Origin: Candidatus Goldiibacteriota bacterium HGW-Goldbacteria-1
GTDB taxonomy: Bacteria; Oederibacteriota; PGYV01
DNA: 64,000 nt
Direction: 5' to 3'
Assembly (NCBI GenBank): GCA_002839855.1
Contig: PGYV01000004.1
Coordinates: forward strand, 69,556 to 133,555
Numbering within the stretch: position 1 is the first letter of the stretch; each line of letters starts with the position of its first letter. Below are positions 44,101-59,001 of the stretch, in pieces. The translations under genes were made by a program, and so were the position numbers. A model generated the notes under the pieces. That model was not told the DNA's origin. It saw only the letters and a list, made by a program, of their open reading frames with translations, and did no database searches.

Positions 44101-44883
44101 TTAGAATTTATTATCCCCGTCAAGGATTCTGCCAAGCCCGCCTAAAATAGAGCCTTCTCCGCGTGAACCGCCTGTCTGCGGCATTGCCTTGTATATCCTG
44201 TCAGCCAGCCTTGAAAAAGGAAGCGACTGTAAAAATACCTTGCCCGGCCCGGTCAGATTAACAAAGAAAAGGCCTTCGCCGCCGAACAGCGCGGTTTTTA
44301 AATCCGCGTTGAATTCAATATTATATTCCACGTTCTCTTCAAACGCCACAAGGCACCCTGTGTCCACCCTTAACTTTTCGCCTTTTTCAAGTTCCATTTC
44401 ATGCACAGTACCGCCGGCGTGAATAAATACAAGACCGTCCCCGGATATTTTCTGAAGTATAAAACCTTCGCCGCCAAACAGGCCGGCGCCGAATTTTTTG
44501 GTAAACGCGATATCAATGTCAGCGCCTTTTGCCGCGCATAAAAACGAATCTTTCTGGCATAAAAGCGTGCCGAACAGTTTTAAATCCACCGGAATTATTT
44601 TCCCGGGATACGGCGCGGCAAATGCCACGCGGGATTTTTTTAAACTTTCATTTTTGTATTCCACCAGAAACATGGATTCTCCGGTAAGCATACGTTTACC
44701 CACTTTAAACAGTTTGTCCACTACCCCGCCTTCTTTTTCGGAAAAAACCGCTTCCATCTTCATGCCTTCCTTCATATACATCATGGCGCCGGCTTCTGAA
44801 ATAACAGCTTCCTTTGGGTCAAGCTCCACTTCCACAAACTGCATATCATCGCCAAAAATCTGGTAGTCTATTTCGTGTGCCAT
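44101..44883 (-). CDS. TIGR00266/AIM24-family protein
   Basis: 260 residues. Tryptophan-RNA-binding-attenuator-like beta fold of the AIM24 family: VEVELDPKEAVISEAGAMMYMKEGM at the start, GESMFLVEYKN, GGEGFILQKISGDG, FIHAGGTVHEMEL and FFVNLTGPGKVFLQSLPFSRLADRI. No catalytic residues known. The C-terminal tail is Gly/Arg-rich. Role unknown; family members are linked to membranes in yeast mitochondria. GGAGG precedes the ATG. Confidence 0.88.
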   Translation of the reverse strand: MAHEIDYQIFGDDMQFVEVELDPKEAVISEAGAMMYMKEGMKMEAVFSEKEGGVVDKLFKVGKRMLTGESMFLVEYKNESLKKSRVAFAAPYPGKIIPVDLKLFGTLLCQKDSFLCAAKGADIDIAFTKKFGAGLFGGEGFILQKISGDGLVFIHAGGTVHEMELEKGEKLRVDTGCLVAFEENVEYNIEFNADLKTALFGGEGLFFVNLTGPGKVFLQSLPFSRLADRIYKAMPQTGGSRGEGSILGGLGRILDGDNKF

Positions 44884-44924: not shown

Positions 44925-45269
44925 CTATCCCGGCGGCCAGCCAAATACCCTTCCGCCAAGCACGTGAAGGTGCAGATGAAAAACAGTCTGCCCCGCGTCC
45001 TTATTAACATTAAAAACAGCCCTGTAGCCGTTATCCGCCGTCTTTTCCTGTTTTGCAATCTTTCCCGCGATATACAGCATATGCCCCACAAGCGCTTCAT
45101 CTTTTTCTTCTATGTCATTTATGGTGGCAATGTGTTTTTTAGGGACTACAAGCACGTGAAGCGGCGCCTGCGGGTTTAAGTCCCTGAATGCAAGCACCGT
45201 GTCATCTTCATAAACCACTTCTGATTTAATCTCTTTCTTTGCTATTTTACAAAATATGCAGTCCTGCAT
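44925..45269 (-). CDS. HIT-family nucleotide hydrolase (HinT-like)
   Basis: 114 residues. CIFCKIAKKEIKSEVVYEDD zinc-site start and the catalytic histidine triad HLHLHV followed by LGG near 98-105. Purine nucleoside phosphoramidase activity is known for HinT homologues. It lies 12 bp downstream of mtaB. The ATG follows GGAGG. Confidence 0.94.
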   Translation of the reverse strand: MQDCIFCKIAKKEIKSEVVYEDDTVLAFRDLNPQAPLHVLVVPKKHIATINDIEEKDEALVGHMLYIAGKIAKQEKTADNGYRAVFNVNKDAGQTVFHLHLHVLGGRVFGWPPG

Positions 45270-45281
45270 TATTACCTCCCT

Positions 45282-46535
45282 CTATTTGCCGATAATCTCC
45301 CCGCACGCGATACCGTTTTGGGCGGATATTATTTTTACTTTTACAATCTCATTAACATACTCTTTTGCGCCTTCCACTTTTACCCTTATATAATTATCTG
45401 TATACCCAAAATAAAATCCGCCTTTATCCCCTGATTCCACAAGCAGCTCCAGCACTTTGCCTATATATGATTCCGCGAATGCAGCTTCTTTTTGCGCGGC
45501 TATCAATGACAGTTCCTTTGCCCTTTTCTTTTTAATTTCATCGCTTACTTTTCCGGGCATTTTAAAAGCCTGCGTGTCAGGCCTGTCAGAATAAGGAAAC
45601 ACGTGCACCCTGGTAAAGGGCATTGACTTTAAAAAAGCTGCCGTTTCAGCGTGATCTGCATCTGTTTCCCCCGGGAAACCCGCGATAATATCCGTGGTAA
45701 TGCCGGCATCCGGCATTGCCGTAAGTATTTTATCAACTTGTCCGCGGTAAAACGCCGTGTCATACCGCCTGTTCATTGCCTTTAATATCCTGTCGCATCC
45801 GCTCTGCATTGACATATGAAAATGGCGGCATAAAAAATTGCCGCTTGCCGCGGCAAATTTTATTATATCATCACCAAGCTCCAGCGGGCCTATGGAACTT
45901 AAACGTATTCGCAGGGGTAATTTAAGGCTTCTTATTTTTTCCAGCAGGCCGCACAATGCGCCGGCTTCATTTTTGTCCGCTCCGTACCTTCCTAAATTAA
46001 TACCTGTCAGAATTATTTCCCTATAGCCGCTTTTTGACAGCGCCTTAATTTCATTTATAATCTGCCCTTCATCCCTGCTTACGGGTTTACCGCCCCGAAC
46101 ATACGGAATTTCGCAGTACGCGCAGAATCTGTCGCAGCCGTCTTCCACTTTAACAAACGCCTTGTTTTTTTCGGAAAATGTTTCAATAAAAAAAGACGGC
46201 GCTTTAGCGCCGGCAGTTTTTAATTCTTCCGGGTAAAGCGCCATGTCATATTTGGAACTGTTAGGCACAAACCAGTCCACACTGGCTGCAATTTCTTCAG
46301 GGCACTGCCTTGCGGCAATGCAGCCGGTAAGAAGTATCTTCTTTCCCGCCGCTTTTAATTTTCTTAACTGCCTTGCCGTGTCGCGGTCTATCTTATCCGT
46401 AACCGTGCAGGTATTTACAATATAAACATCCGGATCCGGGCTTTCTTCGTTTCCTGCTGCCAGCAGTTCCTTTTTTATCCTCTCGGTATCGTACTGGTTT
46501 ACCTTACAGCCATATGTGATAAAACCTATCTTCAC
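45282..46535 (-). CDS. mtaB: tRNA t6A37 methylthiotransferase MtaB
   Basis: Radical-SAM enzyme that adds a methylthio group to t6A at tRNA position 37. 417 residues. UPF0004 cysteines in GCKVNQYDTE (near 9), NTCTVTDK (near 41) and LTGCIAARQ (near 71) bind the auxiliary cluster; radical SAM CDRFCAYCEIPYVRG near 134; TRAM domain at the end. The combination CKVNQ...TCTVT is that of the MtaB/CDKAL1 branch rather than MiaB or RimO. Its start overlaps the stop of the upstream galactokinase-like gene. Confidence 0.93.
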   Translation of the reverse strand: MKIGFITYGCKVNQYDTERIKKELLAAGNEESPDPDVYIVNTCTVTDKIDRDTARQLRKLKAAGKKILLTGCIAARQCPEEIAASVDWFVPNSSKYDMALYPEELKTAGAKAPSFFIETFSEKNKAFVKVEDGCDRFCAYCEIPYVRGGKPVSRDEGQIINEIKALSKSGYREIILTGINLGRYGADKNEAGALCGLLEKIRSLKLPLRIRLSSIGPLELGDDIIKFAAASGNFLCRHFHMSMQSGCDRILKAMNRRYDTAFYRGQVDKILTAMPDAGITTDIIAGFPGETDADHAETAAFLKSMPFTRVHVFPYSDRPDTQAFKMPGKVSDEIKKKRAKELSLIAAQKEAAFAESYIGKVLELLVESGDKGGFYFGYTDNYIRVKVEGAKEYVNEIVKVKIISAQNGIACGEIIGK

Positions 46536-47740
46536 TTTATAAAGACCGTTTCCGGGATATCAAATGCCCTCATTTCATTTGTCAGGGCAGAAGTCTCTAT
46601 AGTAAGCGGCAGCCCTGTCCTTGAAAGGAAACTTTTCTTAAGCCTGCTTTCAAATACCTTTCTTTTTTCCGCGTCAACAACCGCAAGGATGCTTCCGTCA
46701 GTGCCAAGGTTCATCATCCTGACCGCTTTTACGCCGTCCGTGTCTGCCAGCATATCCAGAAGAATTTCGCTTTCTTCCTCCACTATTTCAAGCCTTGCCT
46801 TCATGTTCTTATGGGATTCATTCATAATGTCAATAAGCGCAAGTGAATTTCCCGCAAGTATCGCTTTTTTTGCCTCTGCCACCCTGTCATTTTCCGCGAT
46901 GAAATAAGCGCAGCGTTTTCTCTGGATTATGGAAAGCTTGCTTCTGTAATCATCAAACTGTTCCGCGGTTATTTCGTCAAGTGTGTCAATGCGCGCGCCG
47001 TTTTTCCTCATTATTTCTATGGATTCTGCCACTTCCGCCAGAATCTGTTTCTTCTTTGCCTCAATTGTCTTTTTCTTTACGCCGGAACTTAGCACCATAA
47101 ACAGATGCCCTTTTATTCCAAAAGGCAGTGTTTCAACAGAACCCGCCTTAATATCAAAATATGTCAGATGCCCCGGCCTTCCTCCGATGGACGGGATAAA
47201 CTTAACCGTGTTTTTGTCCCTGCCCATGTAATTCACTTCGCCCTGCGCGCATATTTCCGCTATTTCCAGCGCGGACATCTGCCAGTCGGAAAGTTTTCCG
47301 GCAATAACAGCCGCCCCGGTTTCAAGCGCTTCCATATGGTTTGACTGAAAAGTATCCGGAATATCATTATCTATATACAGATTCATTCCCGGCACCCTTT
47401 TTGACATGCTTTCAAGCATGAACAGCGTGCTTGAAATATAATTTGCCCAGCCATTATCCTGCTTGGACTGCGCGTCATTCAGCATCACCCTTATATTTTC
47501 ATCATACTTCTTGGAGTACATGTTGACGCTTCTGTCATTTTCCCTTCTTCTCTGCGCCATCATTATAGCGCTTTTATCAAGGTTTCCTGACAGGACTTTT
47601 CCCCTGTTAAATTCGTTGGTTTCACCAAGGATGCCTATGCTTCCCGGCACAATTACCCCTGTTATCTTTTCCTTCTTTAAATCAAACCTGCCCGCGGCAA
47701 AAAAATCCTTTGCCTTTTTTAAAAGTTCTTCCTCTGTCAT
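46532..47740 (-). CDS. Galactokinase homologue lacking catalytic motifs (predicted pseudokinase)
   Basis: 402 residues, GHMP-kinase length and layout. The galactokinase start motif is recognisable but altered (VPGSIGILGETNEFNRGKVL at 31-50), as are SSGVKKKTIEAKKKQ near 218 and ENDRVAEAKKA...MNESHKNMKARL near 283-316, which are the family's most galactokinase-like parts. The ATP loop GLSSSAA is replaced by FQSNHMEAL (131-139), the catalytic MDQ by TVK near 178, and the glycine-rich GGFGG loop by NLGTDGS (344-350). It is therefore unlikely to phosphorylate a sugar. The frame is intact and overlaps mtaB by 4 bp, so it is probably under selection. Confidence 0.75.
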   Translation of the reverse strand: MTEEELLKKAKDFFAAGRFDLKKEKITGVIVPGSIGILGETNEFNRGKVLSGNLDKSAIMMAQRRRENDRSVNMYSKKYDENIRVMLNDAQSKQDNGWANYISSTLFMLESMSKRVPGMNLYIDNDIPDTFQSNHMEALETGAAVIAGKLSDWQMSALEIAEICAQGEVNYMGRDKNTVKFIPSIGGRPGHLTYFDIKAGSVETLPFGIKGHLFMVLSSGVKKKTIEAKKKQILAEVAESIEIMRKNGARIDTLDEITAEQFDDYRSKLSIIQRKRCAYFIAENDRVAEAKKAILAGNSLALIDIMNESHKNMKARLEIVEEESEILLDMLADTDGVKAVRMMNLGTDGSILAVVDAEKRKVFESRLKKSFLSRTGLPLTIETSALTNEMRAFDIPETVFIK

Positions 47741-47751
47741 CTTAATTCTCC

Positions 47752-49524
47752 TTATATTTTTATTTTTCCTATGTAATCTTTTAACGGTTTGTCCTGAAGT
47801 GTTTCCGCAATAACTTCTTCAAGGGTGGTTCTGCCTTCTTTCATAAGCCTTATAGCGGATTCCCTTATGGTAAACATACCCTGGTCCCACGCTTCCCTTT
47901 TCAGGTCGTTCAATGTGCCTTTCTTGAAGATAATTTCCCTAATGCCCATGTTCACGGGCATTACTTCATAAGCGGCCATCCTGCCTTTGTATCCTGTATA
48001 ATGGCACACAGGGCACCCTTTGCCTTCAAAGAAAGTGCCGCCTTCAAGTATTTCCGGCGGAATTCCGCTTCTTTTTGCTTTTACCAGGTCAATTTCCTTA
48101 ATCGGTTCCTTGCAGTTTTCGCACACCTTTCTGACCAGTTTCTGCGCCAGAACAGTGACCACCGATGAACCTACATATATCGGGTCAATATTCATGTCAA
48201 TTAACCTTGTAATTGTGGCCGGCGCGTCATTTGTATGTAATGTTGACAATACAAGATGGCCCGTTAACGCGGCCTTTACAGAAGTGGACGCAGTCTCGTT
48301 ATCACGAATTTCACCGACAAGTATTATATCAGGGTCCTGCCTTAAAAACGACCTTAACACGTTGGCAAAAGTAAGACCTGCCACGGGATTTACCTGCACC
48401 TGTATAATGTGCGGAAGCCTGTATTCCACCGGATCTTCCGCTGTCATTATGTTCATGTGCGGGTCATTGATATGCGATATCATCGAATACAGCGTTGTGG
48501 ATTTTCCGGAACCCGTGGGGCCCGTTATAAGTATCATGCCATAAGGCGCATCAAGTCCTTTTTCTATGCCGGAAAACTGTTTTTCTGACAGGCCAAGTTT
48601 TGTAAGGTCAAGGTTCTGCGCTTCCGAATACAGAAGCCTCATGACTATATTTTCCCCCCACAGGCACGGAAGCGTGGCAACACGAAGGTCAATTGACTTT
48701 GTCCCGCCCGGTATTTTGTATGCTATCCTGCCGTCCTGCGGAAGCCTTTTTTCTATGATATTCAACCCTGCCATAAGTTTAAGCCTGGACGTCAGCGCCC
48801 TTTTAAACTGCACTTTTGGCGGAGGCATTTCCACAAGCGCGCCGTCTATCCTGAACCTAAGCACTATCTTTTTTTCATAGGGGTTAATGTGTATGTCCGA
48901 CGCTTTTTTGTTTACCGCGTCTTCTATTATATAGTTTACGTATTTTACAACAGGGCTGTCATTGCCTTCAATGTCGCCTTCTTCGCCATCTTCATCTTTT
49001 GGTTTTTTATCCTCAAGAAATTCAATTTCCATATTTTCAGATGAAAATTCAAGTTCTTTCATTGTTTCATCAAGGGCATTGCCTATAGGATAATACTTAT
49101 CAATGGCATCATTAAGCGAGGACTGCGTGGTCACCACAAAACTAAGTTCAAGTTCCTGGCCGCCCTTAATATCATATTTTAAATTCATGGTCAAAGACGG
49201 ATCCATGGGGTTTGCCGTGGCAAATATTATCTTGCCCGGCTTTTTTTCAATGGGGAGCAGTTTATATTTTCTGGCTATGTCAGGCGTCATGACTTTTATT
49301 ACTTCTTCTTCTATATGTATGGCGCTTACATCCACAAACTTTACGCCAAACTGCATGGCAAGAAAGTGATACAGCACGTCTTCCGTGATAAAGCCCAGTT
49401 TGACAAGGATAAACCCAAGCGAATCGCTTGTCTTTGACTGTTCTTCAACGGCTTTTTCAAGCTGTTCTTCCGTTACCATTCCCTCTTCTAAAAGAATCTG
49501 TCCAAGCTTTTTAGCTTCGTACAA
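47752..49524 (-). CDS. GspE/PilB-type secretion or pilus ATPase, copy B
   Basis: Cytoplasmic motor ATPase for type II secretion or type IV pilus assembly. 590 residues. N-terminal MshEN-like domain (about 1-150; known to bind c-di-GMP in relatives), then Walker A GPTGSGKSTTLYS near 330, Asp box, Walker B-like DPDIILVGEIRDNETA and the His box ALTGHLVLSTLHTND; the zinc-binding tetracysteine lies in CENCKEPI and GCPVCHYTGYKGR. The start is TTG with AGGAG 6 bases upstream. A Glu/Asp-rich linker near 160-185 (EDKKPKDEDGEEGDIEG) distinguishes it from copy A. Confidence 0.93.
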   Translation of the reverse strand: MYEAKKLGQILLEEGMVTEEQLEKAVEEQSKTSDSLGFILVKLGFITEDVLYHFLAMQFGVKFVDVSAIHIEEEVIKVMTPDIARKYKLLPIEKKPGKIIFATANPMDPSLTMNLKYDIKGGQELELSFVVTTQSSLNDAIDKYYPIGNALDETMKELEFSSENMEIEFLEDKKPKDEDGEEGDIEGNDSPVVKYVNYIIEDAVNKKASDIHINPYEKKIVLRFRIDGALVEMPPPKVQFKRALTSRLKLMAGLNIIEKRLPQDGRIAYKIPGGTKSIDLRVATLPCLWGENIVMRLLYSEAQNLDLTKLGLSEKQFSGIEKGLDAPYGMILITGPTGSGKSTTLYSMISHINDPHMNIMTAEDPVEYRLPHIIQVQVNPVAGLTFANVLRSFLRQDPDIILVGEIRDNETASTSVKAALTGHLVLSTLHTNDAPATITRLIDMNIDPIYVGSSVVTVLAQKLVRKVCENCKEPIKEIDLVKAKRSGIPPEILEGGTFFEGKGCPVCHYTGYKGRMAAYEVMPVNMGIREIIFKKGTLNDLKREAWDQGMFTIRESAIRLMKEGRTTLEEVIAETLQDKPLKDYIGKIKI

Positions 49525-49551: not shown

Positions 49552-51255
49552 TTAATCCGCTGAAGTTGCCATTATTACTTCTTCAATTGATGTAATACCG
49601 TTTTTCCATTTTTCAAGCGCAACCTGCCTTAACGTCCTCATGCCGTCTTTCTGCGCCTGCGCTGTAAGGGCATTTAAATCAGCGCCGGAGTATATAAGAT
49701 CCGCAAGCGCGCCTGTCATTCCCATTATTTCATAAATAGCCACCCTGCCTTTATATCCCGAGCCATTGCACTTGGGGCAGCCTTCGCCTTTATAAAGTGT
49801 AATACCTTCCACTTCCTGCCTTTTTATCAGTATCCTCTGAAGTTCATCGTCAGTGGGTGAATATTCTTTTTTGCAGTTTGCGCATATCCTTCTCATCAGC
49901 CTCTGTGCCACAACCATTTTTAGCGCAGACCCCACATAAATGCGGTCAATGCCCATATCAATAAGCCTCATAATGGTGGAAGGCGAATCATTTGTGTGAA
50001 GCGTGGAAAATAAAAGATGGCCCGTCAGCGCGGCGCTTATGGCAATGCCCGCAGTTTCTCCGTCGCGGATTTCACCGACCATCATTATGTTCGGGTCCTG
50101 CCTTAAGCACGACTTTAATGCCGCGGCAAAAGTAAGCCCTATTTCGCTGTTCATCTGCACCTGTATGATACCGGGCAGCTGATATTCAACCGGGTCTTCA
50201 AGGGTGATGATATTCTTTTTTATGTCATTAACAGTGGATAAAGCGGAGTAAAGCGTTGTGGTTTTTCCGGAACCGGTAGGCCCCGTGTGAAGTATAAGGC
50301 CGTATGGAAGCGTTATGGATTCCTGATAAACGTCAAGTTCCTGCTGTTCGAACCCCAGCTTTGTAAGGTCAAGCATAAGGTTCTGCTGGTCTAAAATACG
50401 CATTACCACGTTTTCACCGTGTATGGATGGCAGTACCGCGACACGAAGGTCAATAATTTTGTTCTGAACTTTTATTTTTATCCTGCCGTCCTGCGCGGCC
50501 CTTTTTTCCATGATATCAAGCCTGGCCATAACTTTTATTCTGGACACAATGGCGTTCTTGTAATGATTCGGCGGTGTGGGCTGTTTCTGCAGTACGCCGT
50601 CCTGCCTGTACCTTATAACCGTACCCTTTGCCGTGGGATTAATGTGTATGTCGGAAGCTTTTATCTTTACAGCTTCGCTGATAATCGCGTTTACAAGTTT
50701 TATAACAGGCGCGGATTCTTCGGTTACCGACGGGTCGTCCTTGCCTGACATTTCTTCTTCAGGAACGCCGGCTTCATCCTTGAACATTGACTGAAGCCCT
50801 TCGTCCATATCAGACTTTGGCGTCACCCCATAAACCAGCGCAAGGCAGGACTTAATGGCGCTTTCACTTGTAATAACAAATTTAATTTCTTTTTCCAGCG
50901 GTATCGCGGAACGCTCCCTTATTTTGGTCACAAGGTGTTCATCGGGTTCGGATGTGGCAAAATAAATTTTATTGCCTTTTTCTTCATATGGAAGGATGGA
51001 ATATTTTTCAGCGGTGTCTTTTGAAATCACTTTCAGAAGTTCAGGGGGGGTGTCGTGCCCTATAAGATCCACATATTCAACGCCAAACTGTATGGCAAGA
51101 AAATAATACAACGCTTCTTCGGTTATAAAACCCATCCTTACAAGGATGCGTCCCAGGGGCTCCCCTGATTTTTGCTGGTCTTCAAGGGCCCGCTTTATCT
51201 GATCTTCTGTGATAAGGTTCTCTTCAAGAAGCAAGTCCCCAAGCCTTTTTGCCAT
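49552..51255 (-). CDS. GspE/PilB-type secretion or pilus ATPase, copy A
   Basis: 567 residues, same architecture as the gene that follows it: MshEN-like N-terminus (MAKRLGDLLLEENLITEDQI), Walker [17 protein letters not shown] near 323, Walker B DPNIMMVGEIRDGETA, His box HLLFSTLHTND, tetracysteine CANCKKEY and GCPKCNGSGYKGR. ATG with AAGGAG. The two ATPases are 27 bp apart. No inner-membrane platform (GspF/PilC), pilin or secretin gene is in the window, so the machine they drive cannot be named. Confidence 0.94.
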   Translation of the reverse strand: MAKRLGDLLLEENLITEDQIKRALEDQQKSGEPLGRILVRMGFITEEALYYFLAIQFGVEYVDLIGHDTPPELLKVISKDTAEKYSILPYEEKGNKIYFATSEPDEHLVTKIRERSAIPLEKEIKFVITSESAIKSCLALVYGVTPKSDMDEGLQSMFKDEAGVPEEEMSGKDDPSVTEESAPVIKLVNAIISEAVKIKASDIHINPTAKGTVIRYRQDGVLQKQPTPPNHYKNAIVSRIKVMARLDIMEKRAAQDGRIKIKVQNKIIDLRVAVLPSIHGENVVMRILDQQNLMLDLTKLGFEQQELDVYQESITLPYGLILHTGPTGSGKTTTLYSALSTVNDIKKNIITLEDPVEYQLPGIIQVQMNSEIGLTFAAALKSCLRQDPNIMMVGEIRDGETAGIAISAALTGHLLFSTLHTNDSPSTIMRLIDMGIDRIYVGSALKMVVAQRLMRRICANCKKEYSPTDDELQRILIKRQEVEGITLYKGEGCPKCNGSGYKGRVAIYEIMGMTGALADLIYSGADLNALTAQAQKDGMRTLRQVALEKWKNGITSIEEVIMATSAD

Positions 51256-51267
51256 TTAGTCTCCTTG

Positions 51268-52368
51268 TTATCTGGCCTTCCCATAACGCGCGTTCATCTG
51301 CGAATCAAACTTCATGTAAAACATCTCTTTTCTTCTTATCACGTGAAAAAAGAACTCCGGAGATCTGCGCTCCCCGGATTCCTTAAACGCCACTTTGCCT
51401 GTGGCGCCGTCATATGATACCGCTTTAAGAAATCCGTTAACATCGGGGTGCCCAAACTTCCCCGCCTTTGCCGCAAGCCCTATAATATTTATCGCGTCAT
51501 ACGCGTGAGGCAGTTTGACATCGGCTTTTATTGCGTACTTTTTTTCATACGCGGTTAAAAACGGCCTTAATTTCTTTATCCCGTACGGGCTGTTTCTGGC
51601 GGTATTCACAAACTCGCAGCCGTCAGAAGCCTCTTTTGTTTCTTTTATAAACTTCCGGTCAAAAATAAAATTCGGCCCGGTAAAAACCGAGCCTGTATTT
51701 TTTTCAAAACTCTGCTTACAAAGGTTAATGGCATCGTCCTGATTACCTATAAAGTATATGGTCTTAACCTTTATTTCCCTTATCCTCTGAATTACATTTG
51801 TAAAATCATACCCCGGTTCAAAGGCCCTGATATACGTGGCATCCACGTTGTTTCTTTTGGAAGTGTCAGCGTATGCCTGCGCCATTTTTTCATACTCTTC
51901 ATTTCCCGACTGATATAAAACAGCGGCTTTCATACGGTCAAAAAGCGCCGGCGCTATCCTTGCCATTATTGCCGCGGTTTCAGTATTGGAAGCTGTCATC
52001 CTGTAGGTATTTCCCTTTCCGGTAAATGAAGCGTAATCTTCGCAGATGGAAATAAGCGGTATTTCTTTGATTGAATTCACCAATTCCGCGTCATTTGCGG
52101 AAAAACAGCCTATCACAGCCGCAAGCTCCGCGTCTGAATTTATTTTATCCGCAGCTCCGGTGTCTGTTTCATCAAAGAAAACCGGCATAAATTCATACAA
52201 TCCTTCAGCCGGCGTCATCTCCGCACACAATATTTCCGCCGCTTTATAAGCAGCATCCACCGACGCGTTTGCCGTATTTCCATAAACACCAATTTTTATT
52301 GTATCTTTCGCGGCCGCATTCATATTTACGGCAGCCATAAGGGCTAAAATAAAAACAATTTTTTTCAA
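51268..52368 (-). CDS. Periplasmic branched-chain amino acid-type binding protein
   Basis: 366 residues with a Sec signal peptide (MKKIVFILALMAAVNMNAAA). Type I periplasmic binding fold of the LivJ/Peripla_BP_6 group: AVIGCFSANDAELVNSI near 85, KTIYFIGNQDDAINLCKQ near 200 and PHAYDAINIIGLAAKA near 293. No permease or ATPase follows, so it may be an orphan sensor or part of a solitary ligand-binding system; the gene directly downstream encodes the GspE/PilB ATPase. TTG start with GGAGG 9 bases upstream. Confidence 0.85.
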   Translation of the reverse strand: MKKIVFILALMAAVNMNAAAKDTIKIGVYGNTANASVDAAYKAAEILCAEMTPAEGLYEFMPVFFDETDTGAADKINSDAELAAVIGCFSANDAELVNSIKEIPLISICEDYASFTGKGNTYRMTASNTETAAIMARIAPALFDRMKAAVLYQSGNEEYEKMAQAYADTSKRNNVDATYIRAFEPGYDFTNVIQRIREIKVKTIYFIGNQDDAINLCKQSFEKNTGSVFTGPNFIFDRKFIKETKEASDGCEFVNTARNSPYGIKKLRPFLTAYEKKYAIKADVKLPHAYDAINIIGLAAKAGKFGHPDVNGFLKAVSYDGATGKVAFKESGERRSPEFFFHVIRRKEMFYMKFDSQMNARYGKAR

Positions 52369-52616
52369 CTTCTGTTACCTCCGGTGTTAATCTGAAATAT
52401 CATTATAACAGTACGCCATTTCTTGTCAAGTGGCGGCGTCTGTCTATAAAAGCAAAGTAGTATTTGATTTTCATTATTATATCTTATATGACGCGCCGAA
52501 ACGTAAAATTGTTGCGCGTATCAGCGATACTATAGTCAGTTTGTGTTTCCCGGTTTGACACACAAGCCGTACATGTGTTATTATGGTGAAAATTTTGTTT
52601 TTAAGGAGGAATATCA
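52369..52616. other. Divergent promoter region between the binding protein and the PBP
   Basis: 248 bp between divergent genes. It contains the PBP promoter (52555-52584); no clear second promoter or gene was seen. Confidence 0.5.
52555..52584 (+). promoter_or_regulatory. Consensus promoter for the TPR-PBP gene
   Basis: TTGACA (52555-52560), 18 bases, TATTAT (52579-52584). Start near 52591; AAGGAGG precedes the ATG at 52617. Confidence 0.75.
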
Positions 52617-54440
52617 ATGCTTAACAGAAAAGCAATAAGCCACCTTTCCAGCGGCTCTTATTATAAAAGAAAAAGGCTTGGTTTTATTTTTTGGGCCATA
52701 CTGGCTTTCATTGTGCTTGCCGGAGCTTTCCATTTTTTCGGAAAAAACCTTCAGTACGCCCTTAACGTAAAAAGCGGCGCCGCAAACCTTAAAAAAGGCA
52801 AACTTGCAGCCGCAACTTCAAATTTTAATAAAGCCGTAAATATAAAACGCGACGGAGCGCTTGCCATAGACGGCCTTGGCGCGGTGGCATTAAAACAGGG
52901 TGATTTTCAAAAAGCGGAAAAACTTTATACAGAAGCCATGGCAGCGGGTTTAAAACCAAACAAAACAATTAATCACTCTGTTATAGGAAATGAATTTATG
53001 GATGGAGGGCTTTACAGGTACGCCGAAACGGAGTTTAAGCACGCTGTTGCTTTAAACCAGTTTGACGCCGAAGCCATGTTCGGCCTTGGTTCGTGCGCGC
53101 ACGCGGCCACAAACCTTGACGAAGCCATAAAATATTACAATAAAGCGCTTCAATACAATCCCAAACTTTCCAAAGCCAGAAAGAATCTTTCCCTTGCTGA
53201 AGACGACAGAAATAAAGGGGCGATTTATTACATGTATGACAGAAACGGCGAGCCTTTAGCGCGGTATAACCTTATTCCGGGACAGGGCAAAAAAACCTAT
53301 ATCCTTGACCAGAGAGCGGCTCATATCACCGGTTTTGACAGCGAAAAAAGGCAGACAAAGGAAGGCATTGAAAAACACCTTGCGGAATATATTCCCGGCA
53401 ACAGGATTTACCTTACAATAGACTCCAAAATTCAGAACACAATAAGCAGGGCGCTTGGCTGGTATAAAGGCGCGGTTGTTGTTCTTAACCCTAAAACAGG
53501 CGAAATTCTTGGTTTATACAGCCAGCCCACTTTTAAACCAAACACAATAGACCAGGACTGGTGGGATGTGGTCGGTAACCGTAATAAACCGCTTTTAAAC
53601 AGAGCCACTGACAAACTTTACGAACCGGGTTCAATAGCTAAAATGATAACTATTGCAAGCGCCTATGAATACGCAATTGACCCCCAAAAAATATTTCCTG
53701 TTAAGTGTCCCGGGCACACATATTATGACAATAAAATTTTCTGGTGCTGGACAAAACACGGAAAAGTAAAATCAATAGAACAGACAGTTGACACTTCATG
53801 CAATATCGGAGCCGCGGAACTTGCCTTTGCAATCGGCTCGCCGCGCCTTACGGAATACAACACAAAATTTGGGTTTGGCCAGCAGCTGGACCTGGGTTTC
53901 ATGGATATCACGCGCAACGTAAGAATTTCAATACCCGTTAAAACAAGCTCCGCACCTATGAATGACCGTACTAAATTTGACCTTGCCATGCACGCATGCG
54001 GCCTGTCATATGAGGGCCACAACTATACAATTACACCGCTGCACGCCGCCCTTCTTGCAGCCACAATCGCAAACGACGGCGTAATGATGGACCCTTATAT
54101 GATAAAAGAAATCCGTAATATCAACGGAAAAATTATATATCAGGCAGCTCCGCGGGCTATTAAAAAACCCGTTACACCGGAAACCGCCGATAAAATTACC
54201 AGACTTATGATAGATTCCGTCGAAAACGGAATAGGCCAGAAAGCAAGGGTTAACGGCATTTCAATTGCCGGAAAAACAGGCACATCCGGAAAAAGCGGCG
54301 CGTTAAACGCGTGGTTTATTTCTTTCGCGCCCGCTGAAAATCCCGAATATGCGATTGCAATATGCGGCGATTCAGAGGGTAAGGGAATGTCCGTGGCAGC
54401 CCCTGTGGCCGGCGACATTTACAAGGATTTATTCAAATAA
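52617..54440 (+). CDS. Penicillin-binding transpeptidase with inserted TPR domain
   Basis: Peptidoglycan cross-linking enzyme of class B type. 607 residues: membrane anchor (about 21-42), TPR-like helical repeats (about 50-195), then a penicillin-binding N-domain remnant (YDRNGEPLARY near 208, AAHITGFD near 234) and transpeptidase domain with catalytic Ser339-x-x-Lys342 (EPGSIAKM), SCN at 394-396 and KTG at 553-555 (AGKTGTSG). The catalytic triad is complete, so it should be active and bind beta-lactams. TPRs between anchor and catalytic domain are unusual and suggest docking to a partner such as a divisome or elongasome protein. Confidence 0.9.
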   Translation: MLNRKAISHLSSGSYYKRKRLGFIFWAILAFIVLAGAFHFFGKNLQYALNVKSGAANLKKGKLAAATSNFNKAVNIKRDGALAIDGLGAVALKQGDFQKAEKLYTEAMAAGLKPNKTINHSVIGNEFMDGGLYRYAETEFKHAVALNQFDAEAMFGLGSCAHAATNLDEAIKYYNKALQYNPKLSKARKNLSLAEDDRNKGAIYYMYDRNGEPLARYNLIPGQGKKTYILDQRAAHITGFDSEKRQTKEGIEKHLAEYIPGNRIYLTIDSKIQNTISRALGWYKGAVVVLNPKTGEILGLYSQPTFKPNTIDQDWWDVVGNRNKPLLNRATDKLYEPGSIAKMITIASAYEYAIDPQKIFPVKCPGHTYYDNKIFWCWTKHGKVKSIEQTVDTSCNIGAAELAFAIGSPRLTEYNTKFGFGQQLDLGFMDITRNVRISIPVKTSSAPMNDRTKFDLAMHACGLSYEGHNYTITPLHAALLAATIANDGVMMDPYMIKEIRNINGKIIYQAAPRAIKKPVTPETADKITRLMIDSVENGIGQKARVNGISIAGKTGTSGKSGALNAWFISFAPAENPEYAIAICGDSEGKGMSVAAPVAGDIYKDLFK

Positions 54441-57456: not shown

Positions 57457-59001
57457 TCAGTATAAAACCGTTATTTTATTTTTACCTCTAACCGTGCCGC
57501 TGCTTACCGTAAAAAAATAAGTCCCGTTTCCGGCTTTGCGTCCGCTTGTGGTTTTGCCGTCCCATTTAACGTAATTGTAACCTGTGTACGCGGCTGAAAC
57601 ATCAACTGTCTTTTTCCATACAACATCACCCGCCGCGTCATAAATGGTAATAACAGTTTCAGCCGGGGCTGATAAGACATATGTGATGGTTGTGTTTCTT
57701 TCACGGTCGGGAGAAAAAGGGTTTGGCCAGTTATAAGTGCGCATTTCAACCGCCCTGTCAGGGTTTTCAGTCAGCGCCCTGTAGGCGTTTATCCTGCCCC
57801 AGCCGGTCTTAATGTCATAACCGGGGTCGCCTATGTCATCCGCTGACATCTGCATTATTTTTCTGACCCGTTCTTCTTTAATCCCGGGGTTTAAAAGTAC
57901 AACCTGCGCGGCAAGCGCGGACACAAACGGCGCGGAAAACGAAGTGCCATCCACGGATTCATAACCCGAATTCTTTGATGTCGTTGTAATACCCACACCC
58001 GGCGCTGTTAAATCAACTTTACCGTAGGTGGAAAAGTTCGCTTTATTATCATTTATATCGGAAGCCCCGACACTTATCACCTGTGAATAAGCGGCAGGGT
58101 AAATCTTCTCGTTTATTCCTGAATTTCCGGAAGAAGCTACAAGCACACACCCTTTTCCAGCGGCATAAGCCACCGCATTCTGCAGGGTAATTCCTCCGTA
58201 GCTGCCGCCAAAACTCATGTTTATTACGTGCGCCCCATTGTCGGCCGCCCACACGCAGGCGTAATAGATATCCGCATCATGGCCAAAACCGTCTTCATCA
58301 AGCGCCTTTATAGGCATTACTTTTATCAAAGAACTGCCATTGCTGTAGGCCGCACCTGCTATTCCATTTCCATTATTTGTATTTGCCGCAATTATTCCCG
58401 TCACAAGCGTTCCGTGCCCTTCATCCGCGTCATCATCCACATTACCGCTTCCATCAATAGCGTTTATCCCGTTAACTGTAGTGCCGATAATATCAGAATG
58501 TTCCCTTCTTAGACCGGTATCAATAACAGCAACAATAACCTGCCTGTTAAGCCCTGAAGTAATAAGCGATTCCTTGTAAACTTTGTCCTCTTCTATTTTA
58601 TTATAACCCCATTGGCTGCCGTTTTGATAATACGTATCATCAGGCCCGCCAGTAAGAGGAGTATACCCTGCTTTTCTTTTATAGTTTGGTTCCGCGTATT
58701 CAACAAAAGGAAGCGAGGAGAAATAGGAGATTTTTTCTGTGATATTAATGCCGTCCGGTACTTCAACACAGCGGATGTCAAGGGCGCTAAAGTGCGGCCG
58801 AATGTCCCTGCAGCCGCCTTCTTCAATAACAGAAACAATAAGGCTATCGCGTGAAGTGCTTTTCCAGCCGCGTTCTTTGGCGTAACTTTCCATTACAGAC
58901 GGTTCAAATACTTTTTTAAACCCTATAATTATGCTCTCTGCTGCCGTTAAAGAAAAGGCAAACGATATAAATACTATCAATAACGCAGCGGTTTTTTTCA
59001 A
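57457..59001 (-). CDS. Secreted subtilisin-like serine protease with FlgD-like C-terminal domain
   Basis: 514 residues. Signal peptide (MKKTAALLIVFISFAFSLTAA), I9-like propeptide region to about 108, S8 domain with Asp161 (VAVIDTGL), His196 (DEGHGT) and Ser354 (GTSFSAPF), oxyanion Asn293 (ASSGN). C-terminal about 85 residues (YNWPNPFSP...IYDAAGDVVWKK...WDGKTTSGRKAGNGTYFFTV) are a FlgD-like Ig/type IX sorting-like domain. It starts with TTG straight after the coaBC stop (TAA-TTG). Extracellular protein turnover or surface processing is the likely role. Confidence 0.9.
   Translation of the reverse strand: MKKTAALLIVFISFAFSLTAAESIIIGFKKVFEPSVMESYAKERGWKSTSRDSLIVSVIEEGGCRDIRPHFSALDIRCVEVPDGINITEKISYFSSLPFVEYAEPNYKRKAGYTPLTGGPDDTYYQNGSQWGYNKIEEDKVYKESLITSGLNRQVIVAVIDTGLRREHSDIIGTTVNGINAIDGSGNVDDDADEGHGTLVTGIIAANTNNGNGIAGAAYSNGSSLIKVMPIKALDEDGFGHDADIYYACVWAADNGAHVINMSFGGSYGGITLQNAVAYAAGKGCVLVASSGNSGINEKIYPAAYSQVISVGASDINDNKANFSTYGKVDLTAPGVGITTTSKNSGYESVDGTSFSAPFVSALAAQVVLLNPGIKEERVRKIMQMSADDIGDPGYDIKTGWGRINAYRALTENPDRAVEMRTYNWPNPFSPDRERNTTITYVLSAPAETVITIYDAAGDVVWKKTVDVSAAYTGYNYVKWDGKTTSGRKAGNGTYFFTVSSGTVRGKNKITVLY

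Follow-up and report, generated by a model that had tools for sequence, protein, structure and literature searches.

The window, meaning the whole 64,000-nucleotide stretch of contig PGYV01000004.1 from Candidatus Goldiibacteriota bacterium HGW-Goldbacteria-1, encodes on its reverse strand a 402-aa protein that we refer to as psGalK (46532..47740). Its reading frame, homology, structural models, fold matches, orthologues and selection identify it as a full-length galactokinase-fold pseudo-enzyme. The gene starts with ATG, has an intact frame and is present as a single copy in the 2.86-Mb genome. Located 11 bp upstream on the same strand is gspE2 (47752..49524), which encodes a GspE/PilB-type ATPase with MshEN and is preceded in tandem by gspE1 (49552..51255, reverse strand), which encodes another ATPase of this type. 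Downstream lies a gene for an mtaB-type radical-SAM methylthiotransferase (45282..46535, reverse strand). Its start and the psGalK stop share 4 bp, an overlap found in most orthologous loci as well. The conserved next gene encodes a HIT-family nucleotide-binding protein (44925..45269, reverse strand), and wherever the contig reaches, HIT is followed by a rumA-type gene. In the window's genus, an AIM24-family gene (44101-44883, reverse strand) is inserted between HIT and rumA; no AIM24 match was seen at this site in any other family of the order. A gspE2 orthologue is directly upstream of psGalK in all nine loci whose contig extends far enough, window included, and mtaB is downstream in 12 of 12, which bears out the operon with mtaB and two secretion ATPases that had been proposed from the window by itself.

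GspE1 and GspE2 have N-terminal MshEN modules of the c-di-GMP-binding type, and each carries paired MshEN-like motifs, which in GspE2 read KLGQILLEEGMVTEEQLEKAVEEQ and SLGFILVKLGFITEDVLYHFLAMQ. The motifs of both proteins are close to the published c-di-GMP motif (PMC5013675) except at the Arg positions. Within the pairs the Leu/Gly/Gln pattern is kept, and the leading Arg is replaced by Lys and Ser in GspE2 and by Pro in the second motif of GspE1. Binding of c-di-GMP by these MshEN regions is uncertain as judged from the motifs. Four further PF00437 ATPases are encoded elsewhere in the window genome.

The relationship of psGalK to galactokinases extends over nearly its whole length. The NCBIfam galactokinase model NF003705 matched residues 22-379 (E 3.8e-42), and the L. 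lactis galactokinase (PDB 1pie) matched residues 26-381 (E 1e-25). The original prediction had recognised a galactokinase by the C-terminal half; the assignment as a galactokinase homologue stands, but the homology spans residues 22-381 and includes both halves. The NF003705 score was 144.4 bits against an equivalog cut-off of 385, the Pfam galactose-binding signature PF10509 fell below its cut-off (E 0.05), and a GHMP_kinases_N search of its own genome did not recover psGalK. The one protein of the window genome that the GHMP N-terminal model matches has an open frame of 286 aa.

An AlphaFold (AF2) model of psGalK built from 36 sequences reached a pLDDT of 90.6 and a pTM of 0.89, and a model built from an alignment of 12 pseudo-kinases only reached 85.9 and 0.82. 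In Foldseek searches, both models matched solved galactokinases best (E 1.8e-31 and 8.8e-29), with TM to target of about 0.82-0.91; for the pseudo-kinase-only model, the values were 0.87-0.91 for 1pie, 1s4e and 2dei. The predicted structure of psGalK is thus a full-length galactokinase fold. Because the alignment of 12 pseudo-kinases alone still yields this fold, it was not borrowed from active relatives, and we discarded the idea that it was copied from active homologues in the alignment. Like bacterial and archaeal GalK (NF003705; PDB 1pie, 1s4e, 2cz9), psGalK shows collinear homology over ~350 residues and the whole predicted fold, and it retains R276, E283 and R286 of the C-terminal domain. 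In contrast to GalK, it is without all three GHMP motifs, the catalytic Asp and the galactose contacts. A shift of these motifs to other positions, rather than their loss, was also considered and rejected: the alignment is collinear, both models have the galactokinase order of elements, and no relocated ATP loop or catalytic base was found.

To describe these losses, we aligned the psGalK family with 37 galactokinases whose motifs are intact, drawn from the phylum of the window as well as from others. Conservation in this intact set reaches 90% or more at 60 columns, of which the psGalK family keeps 20 and has changed 40. The former motif 1 and galactose signature (residues 31-48; 47597..47650, reverse strand) reads VPGSIGILGETNEFNRGK in place of xPGRxNLIGEHTDYNxGx, with PGR changed to PGS and GEHTDYN to GETNEFN in the window. 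The substrate Arg, His and Asp are lost, as is the Tyr of GEHTDY, such that the galactose-binding signature PGRxNxIGEHTDY is replaced by PGSIGILGETNEF. Residue 40 is still Glu or Asp in 12 of 12 orthologues. In a second segment (residues 223-234; 47039..47074, reverse strand), Lys230 occupies the sugar-contact Tyr column and Ile233, which is invariant in the family, occupies the position of a GalK-invariant Arg. The galactose-contact columns vary among orthologues, with V/T/A/I in the His column, E/N/A/K in the Asp column and R/K/V/T in the Tyr column that holds Lys230, which suggests that the sugar site was simply released. The losses therefore go beyond the three catalytic loops that had been noticed, as the sugar-binding site is gone as well.

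The former ATP phosphate loop (residues 126-142; 47315..47365, reverse strand) reads DIPDTFQSNHMEALETG in place of xxPxGxGLSSSAALExx. GLSSSAALE has become QSNHMEALE, which confirms that the ATP loop is lost: GLSSSAA reads QSNHMEA, the Ser is missing, and an invariant Glu stands in the Ala column. Asp129, Phe131 and this Glu137 are invariant in all 12 orthologues. In the former catalytic segment (residues 168-187; 47180..47239, reverse strand), GIMDQ is replaced by NTVKF, and the catalytic Asp by Lys180, followed by [FY]xP; its reported loss holds throughout the family, with Lys180 found in 12 of 12 orthologues and Pro183 likewise invariant. The former glycine-rich motif 3 (residues 339-356; 46673..46726, reverse strand) reads AVRMMNLGTDGSILAVVD, with NLGTDG for GAGFGG. 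The claim that this loop is replaced stands in part: Asn344 and Asp348 substitute two invariant glycines in 12 of 12 orthologues, but glycines 346 and 349 remain.

Many of the residues at the former ATP and catalytic sites are invariant across the 12 orthologues, which argues for a fixed new state instead of decay. We rejected random erosion at residues 129, 131, 137, 180, 183, 344 and 348 and accept it for the sugar-contact sites. In GHMP kinases, contacts with the ATP phosphates come from main-chain amides and the helix dipole, supplied by the phosphate loop and by the N-terminal end of the helix that follows it (PMC1851959). In the psGalK model, this helix spans residues 135-150, which places Glu137 in its first turn. 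We infer that the changes in charge, from Ala to Glu at the phosphate site and from Asp to Lys at the catalytic base, would oppose ATP binding and catalysis, and that phosphate binding would be disfavoured. Salt bridges among Glu137, Lys180 and Asp348 may block the pocket. On these grounds, psGalK would bind neither galactose nor MgATP and would not phosphorylate.

Orthologues of psGalK, with 46-96% identity, are present in 12 of the 14 genomes of the order, window genome counted. The frame, already recognised as intact in the window, is intact in all 12 genomes, which represent five families of the order (f1, f2, f4, f5 and f6), and the same motif losses are common to all of them. The two remaining genomes, G033 and G043 (82% and 86% complete), also lack orthologues of the neighbouring mtaB and gspE2, which suggests that the locus is probably unassembled there; we did not retain true absence of psGalK as an explanation, since the adjoining genes are gone too. 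Comparisons of the window gene with its genus mates gave dN/dS values of 0.04-0.06, which indicate strongly purifying selection comparable to that on gspE1 and gspE2, with a ratio below that of mtaB. Across the order, 22.6% of psGalK positions are invariant, and 55 positions that are invariant in psGalK are variable or different in galactokinases, many of them in the C-terminal half. Extensive motif loss could be expected of a decaying pseudogene or an annotation artefact, but this reading can hardly be credited against a frame kept in 12 genomes of five families, the low dN/dS and the invariant positions, and we consider it ruled out by selection and conservation. Instead, psGalK has two features of a pseudo-enzyme, namely catalytic residues lost throughout a conserved orthologous family and purifying selection. 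The original prediction of a pseudokinase is supported by the lost motifs, by the replacements conserved in 12 of 12 orthologues (Glu137, Lys180, Pro183, Asn344 and Asp348 among them, so that change at the key sites is not random) and by the dN/dS. Two of the checks proposed with it, structure prediction and collection of homologues, gave this outcome.

In the window's genus, no other recognisable galactokinase was found besides psGalK; the window genome encodes a GalT-like protein. Elsewhere in the order, four genomes encode a fusion of galactose-1-phosphate uridylyltransferase and galactokinase (GalT-GalK) of 715-748 aa with intact galactokinase motifs (L045:7036-9192, reverse; L046:813-3059, reverse; L047:6478-8625, forward; L051:7253-9403, reverse).

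We next consider relatives of psGalK, as a homologue search covering the window's phylum and about 340 sampled other genomes recovered several stages between enzyme and pseudo-enzyme. In family f13, a response regulator gene and an HD-GYP gene separate the gspE pair from a canonical galactokinase gene, which is followed by HIT. In f12, a near-canonical galactokinase that keeps the Asp, with GDHTDYN and ILDP, stands in the order gspE, HD-GYP, galK, HIT. The HD-GYP genes between gspE and galK in these two families (L064:1922-3859 and L066:7540-9018) are of the c-di-GMP phosphodiesterase type. In f14, where the relative immediately precedes mtaB and HIT, the galactose signature is gone (GEQISAV) but the Asp is kept (GLLDS). 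In f16, the Asp is replaced by Ser (GDYFSPFA), the GLGxSAA and GxGWGG-type loops are kept, and a TPR protein precedes mtaB; in f15 (genome G023), the ATP loop is lost too. The partly degenerate galactokinases of f15 and f16 (L032, L033, L035, L036 and L068-L071) have Ser for the catalytic Asp and GGEYTEAVDG in place of GEHTDYN. They lie near TPR, mtaB and HIT genes, not gspE, and most f16 genomes encode a second, canonical galactokinase elsewhere. Outside the phylum, where the roughly 340 sampled genomes were searched, none of 19 homologues inspected was a pseudo-kinase, as all have canonical or near-canonical motifs. The plasmid-borne matches among those listed are ordinary galactokinases with about 25% identity, and in another phylum an intact galK lies near HIT and dnaG-type genes (L072).

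In phylogenetic trees, the full pseudo-kinase family falls on one side of a branch with support of 100/100, the partly degenerate family is supported at 98-99 / 94-96, and a split supported at 95-96 / 87-90 sets both families together apart from intact enzymes; the branches are long. An alternative tree that places the full pseudo-kinases with the f12 and f13 enzymes was not rejected (p-AU 0.19). Given this result and the long branches, full and partial degeneration may have had one origin or two. The relatives look as if the galactokinase active site had been dismantled in place within its gene cluster. They form a natural series within one small phylum, from canonical enzymes, through an altered galactose site with the Asp kept and an Asp-to-Ser change with the ATP loop kept, to loss of all of these. 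This series and the fixed genomic context make the order of the change from enzyme to pseudo-enzyme, and the timing of a new partner, testable.

A complete galactokinase shape without its working parts, under strong selection throughout an order of uncultured bacteria, suggests that the role of psGalK is probably something other than phosphorylating a sugar, and we are highly confident that it is a folded protein retained for another purpose. Yeast Gal3p acts with galactose and ATP bound, needs its ATP site and requires Gal80p. Like Gal3p and K. lactis Gal1p, psGalK has galactokinase ancestry and a probable non-catalytic role. However, its sugar and ATP sites are dismantled, whereas Gal3p retains both without turnover, and no Gal80-like system is known for psGalK. 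A sugar or nucleotide sensor of this kind, of which the sugar version had been suggested for the locus, would agree with the galactokinase fold, with Glu or Asp at residue 40 in 12 of 12 orthologues and with the precedent of regulatory galactokinases (PMC7556753). Nevertheless, we regard it as very improbable, because the galactose site has lost its Arg, His, Asp, catalytic Asp and Tyr, the His, Asp and Tyr columns vary freely, the ATP loop is gone, and there is no canonical galactokinase in the window genus that such a sensor could regulate. Among other GHMP-fold proteins, C. elegans XOL-1 is described in PMC11349215, citing Luz 2003, as a developmental regulator with no detectable ATP binding, which would make it, like psGalK by its motifs, a pseudo-enzyme without an ATP site. 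XOL-1 is a nematode protein with very little sequence similarity to non-nematode proteins, whereas psGalK has clear galactokinase ancestry and stepwise relatives. Classified by sequence, psGalK is neither a galactokinase, since it has the fold and lacks five motif or score features, nor of the Gal3p type; it is a GHMP-fold pseudo-enzyme, a kind already known from Gal3p and XOL-1.

The remodelled pocket, with Lys180, Glu137, Asp129, Asp348, Asn344 and Arg341, could alternatively serve a new non-kinase reaction or ligand. Charged residues stand unchanged at the former catalytic positions in 12 of 12 orthologues, confidence in the predicted fold and pocket region is high, and the enzyme neighbours MtaB and HIT are conserved. 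We nonetheless consider a new enzyme rather improbable: no pathway emerges from the neighbouring genes, the former substrate positions differ from one orthologue to another, which is unusual for a specific small-molecule site, and the same residues could just as well close the pocket through internal salt bridges. Conserved non-catalytic positions, including the 55 newly invariant ones, and the lack of a plausible ligand site point instead to protein contact. We therefore favour, as the likely explanation, a catalytically dead, protein-binding pseudo-galactokinase that serves as a regulator or scaffold, whichever partner it has; of the roles named in the original prediction, these two are still the best guess. 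Under this explanation, sugar binding, ATP binding and the catalytic Asp would have disappeared from a galactokinase that never left its ancient gene cluster, the fold and much of the C-terminal helical surface would have remained under strong selection, and psGalK would act by contacting another protein.

As for the partner of this protein-binding pseudo-galactokinase, gene order, similar constraint and a precedent make the tandem GspE/PilB-type ATPases just upstream the first choice, although we put them forward tentatively. The precedent is FimX, which binds c-di-GMP as well as the PilB ATPase, whose action it promotes (PMC5595344). The likeness is a functional analogy only, that of an accessory cytoplasmic protein on a GspE/PilB-type ATPase, as FimX has an unrelated fold and an EAL domain that binds c-di-GMP. 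By this analogy, psGalK might provide an accessory cytoplasmic input to pilus or secretion assembly, as FimX does on PilB. The fuller proposal, in which a captured metabolic enzyme with intermediates in sister families came to serve a two-ATPase MshEN GspE/PilB motor as its dedicated subunit or regulator, is possible yet doubtful. In f12 and f13, a canonical or near-canonical galK already shares its cluster with gspE, which makes this association older than the loss of catalysis, and an intact galK occurs in a comparable housekeeping cluster in another phylum (L072), so the neighbourhood may be an inherited order and not a functional link, and gene order alone proves no partnership. Furthermore, the common neighbour of the relatives in f14 to f16 is mtaB, not gspE, and with the f15 and f16 relatives placed close to mtaB and HIT, gene order makes mtaB a partner candidate of comparable standing. 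A dead scaffold or regulator on the side of MtaB, tRNA modification or housekeeping would fit the 4-bp overlap in the window and most orthologous loci, as well as the orders galK-mtaB-HIT in f14 and galK-TPR-mtaB-HIT in f15 and f16, all without gspE. We judge this partner unlikely, as such an overlap is a common operon feature, the spacing is looser in f16, and we know of no pathway that links the GHMP fold to methylthiolation.

If the partner is indeed a GspE/PilB ATPase, psGalK would represent a type of input that is new for pilus or secretion motors. Were psGalK annotated automatically as a galactokinase, genomes with no recognisable Leloir step of this kind would be credited with one. The literature searched, which was mostly without subscription journals and is thus weak evidence, yielded no description of a bacterial pseudo-galactokinase, and none of its papers paired "GHMP" with "pseudokinase" or "galactokinase" with "pseudoenzyme".

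Two further features of the window lie beyond the gspE pair. A Peripla_BP_6 (periplasmic-binding-protein-like) gene is divergent from a gene for a penicillin-binding transpeptidase with TPR repeats (51268-54440), and the two are perhaps an LpoA-like activator pair. A subtilase gene (57457-59001, reverse strand) encodes a FlgD_ig / CHU_C-like domain at its C-terminal end that could act as a secretion signal.
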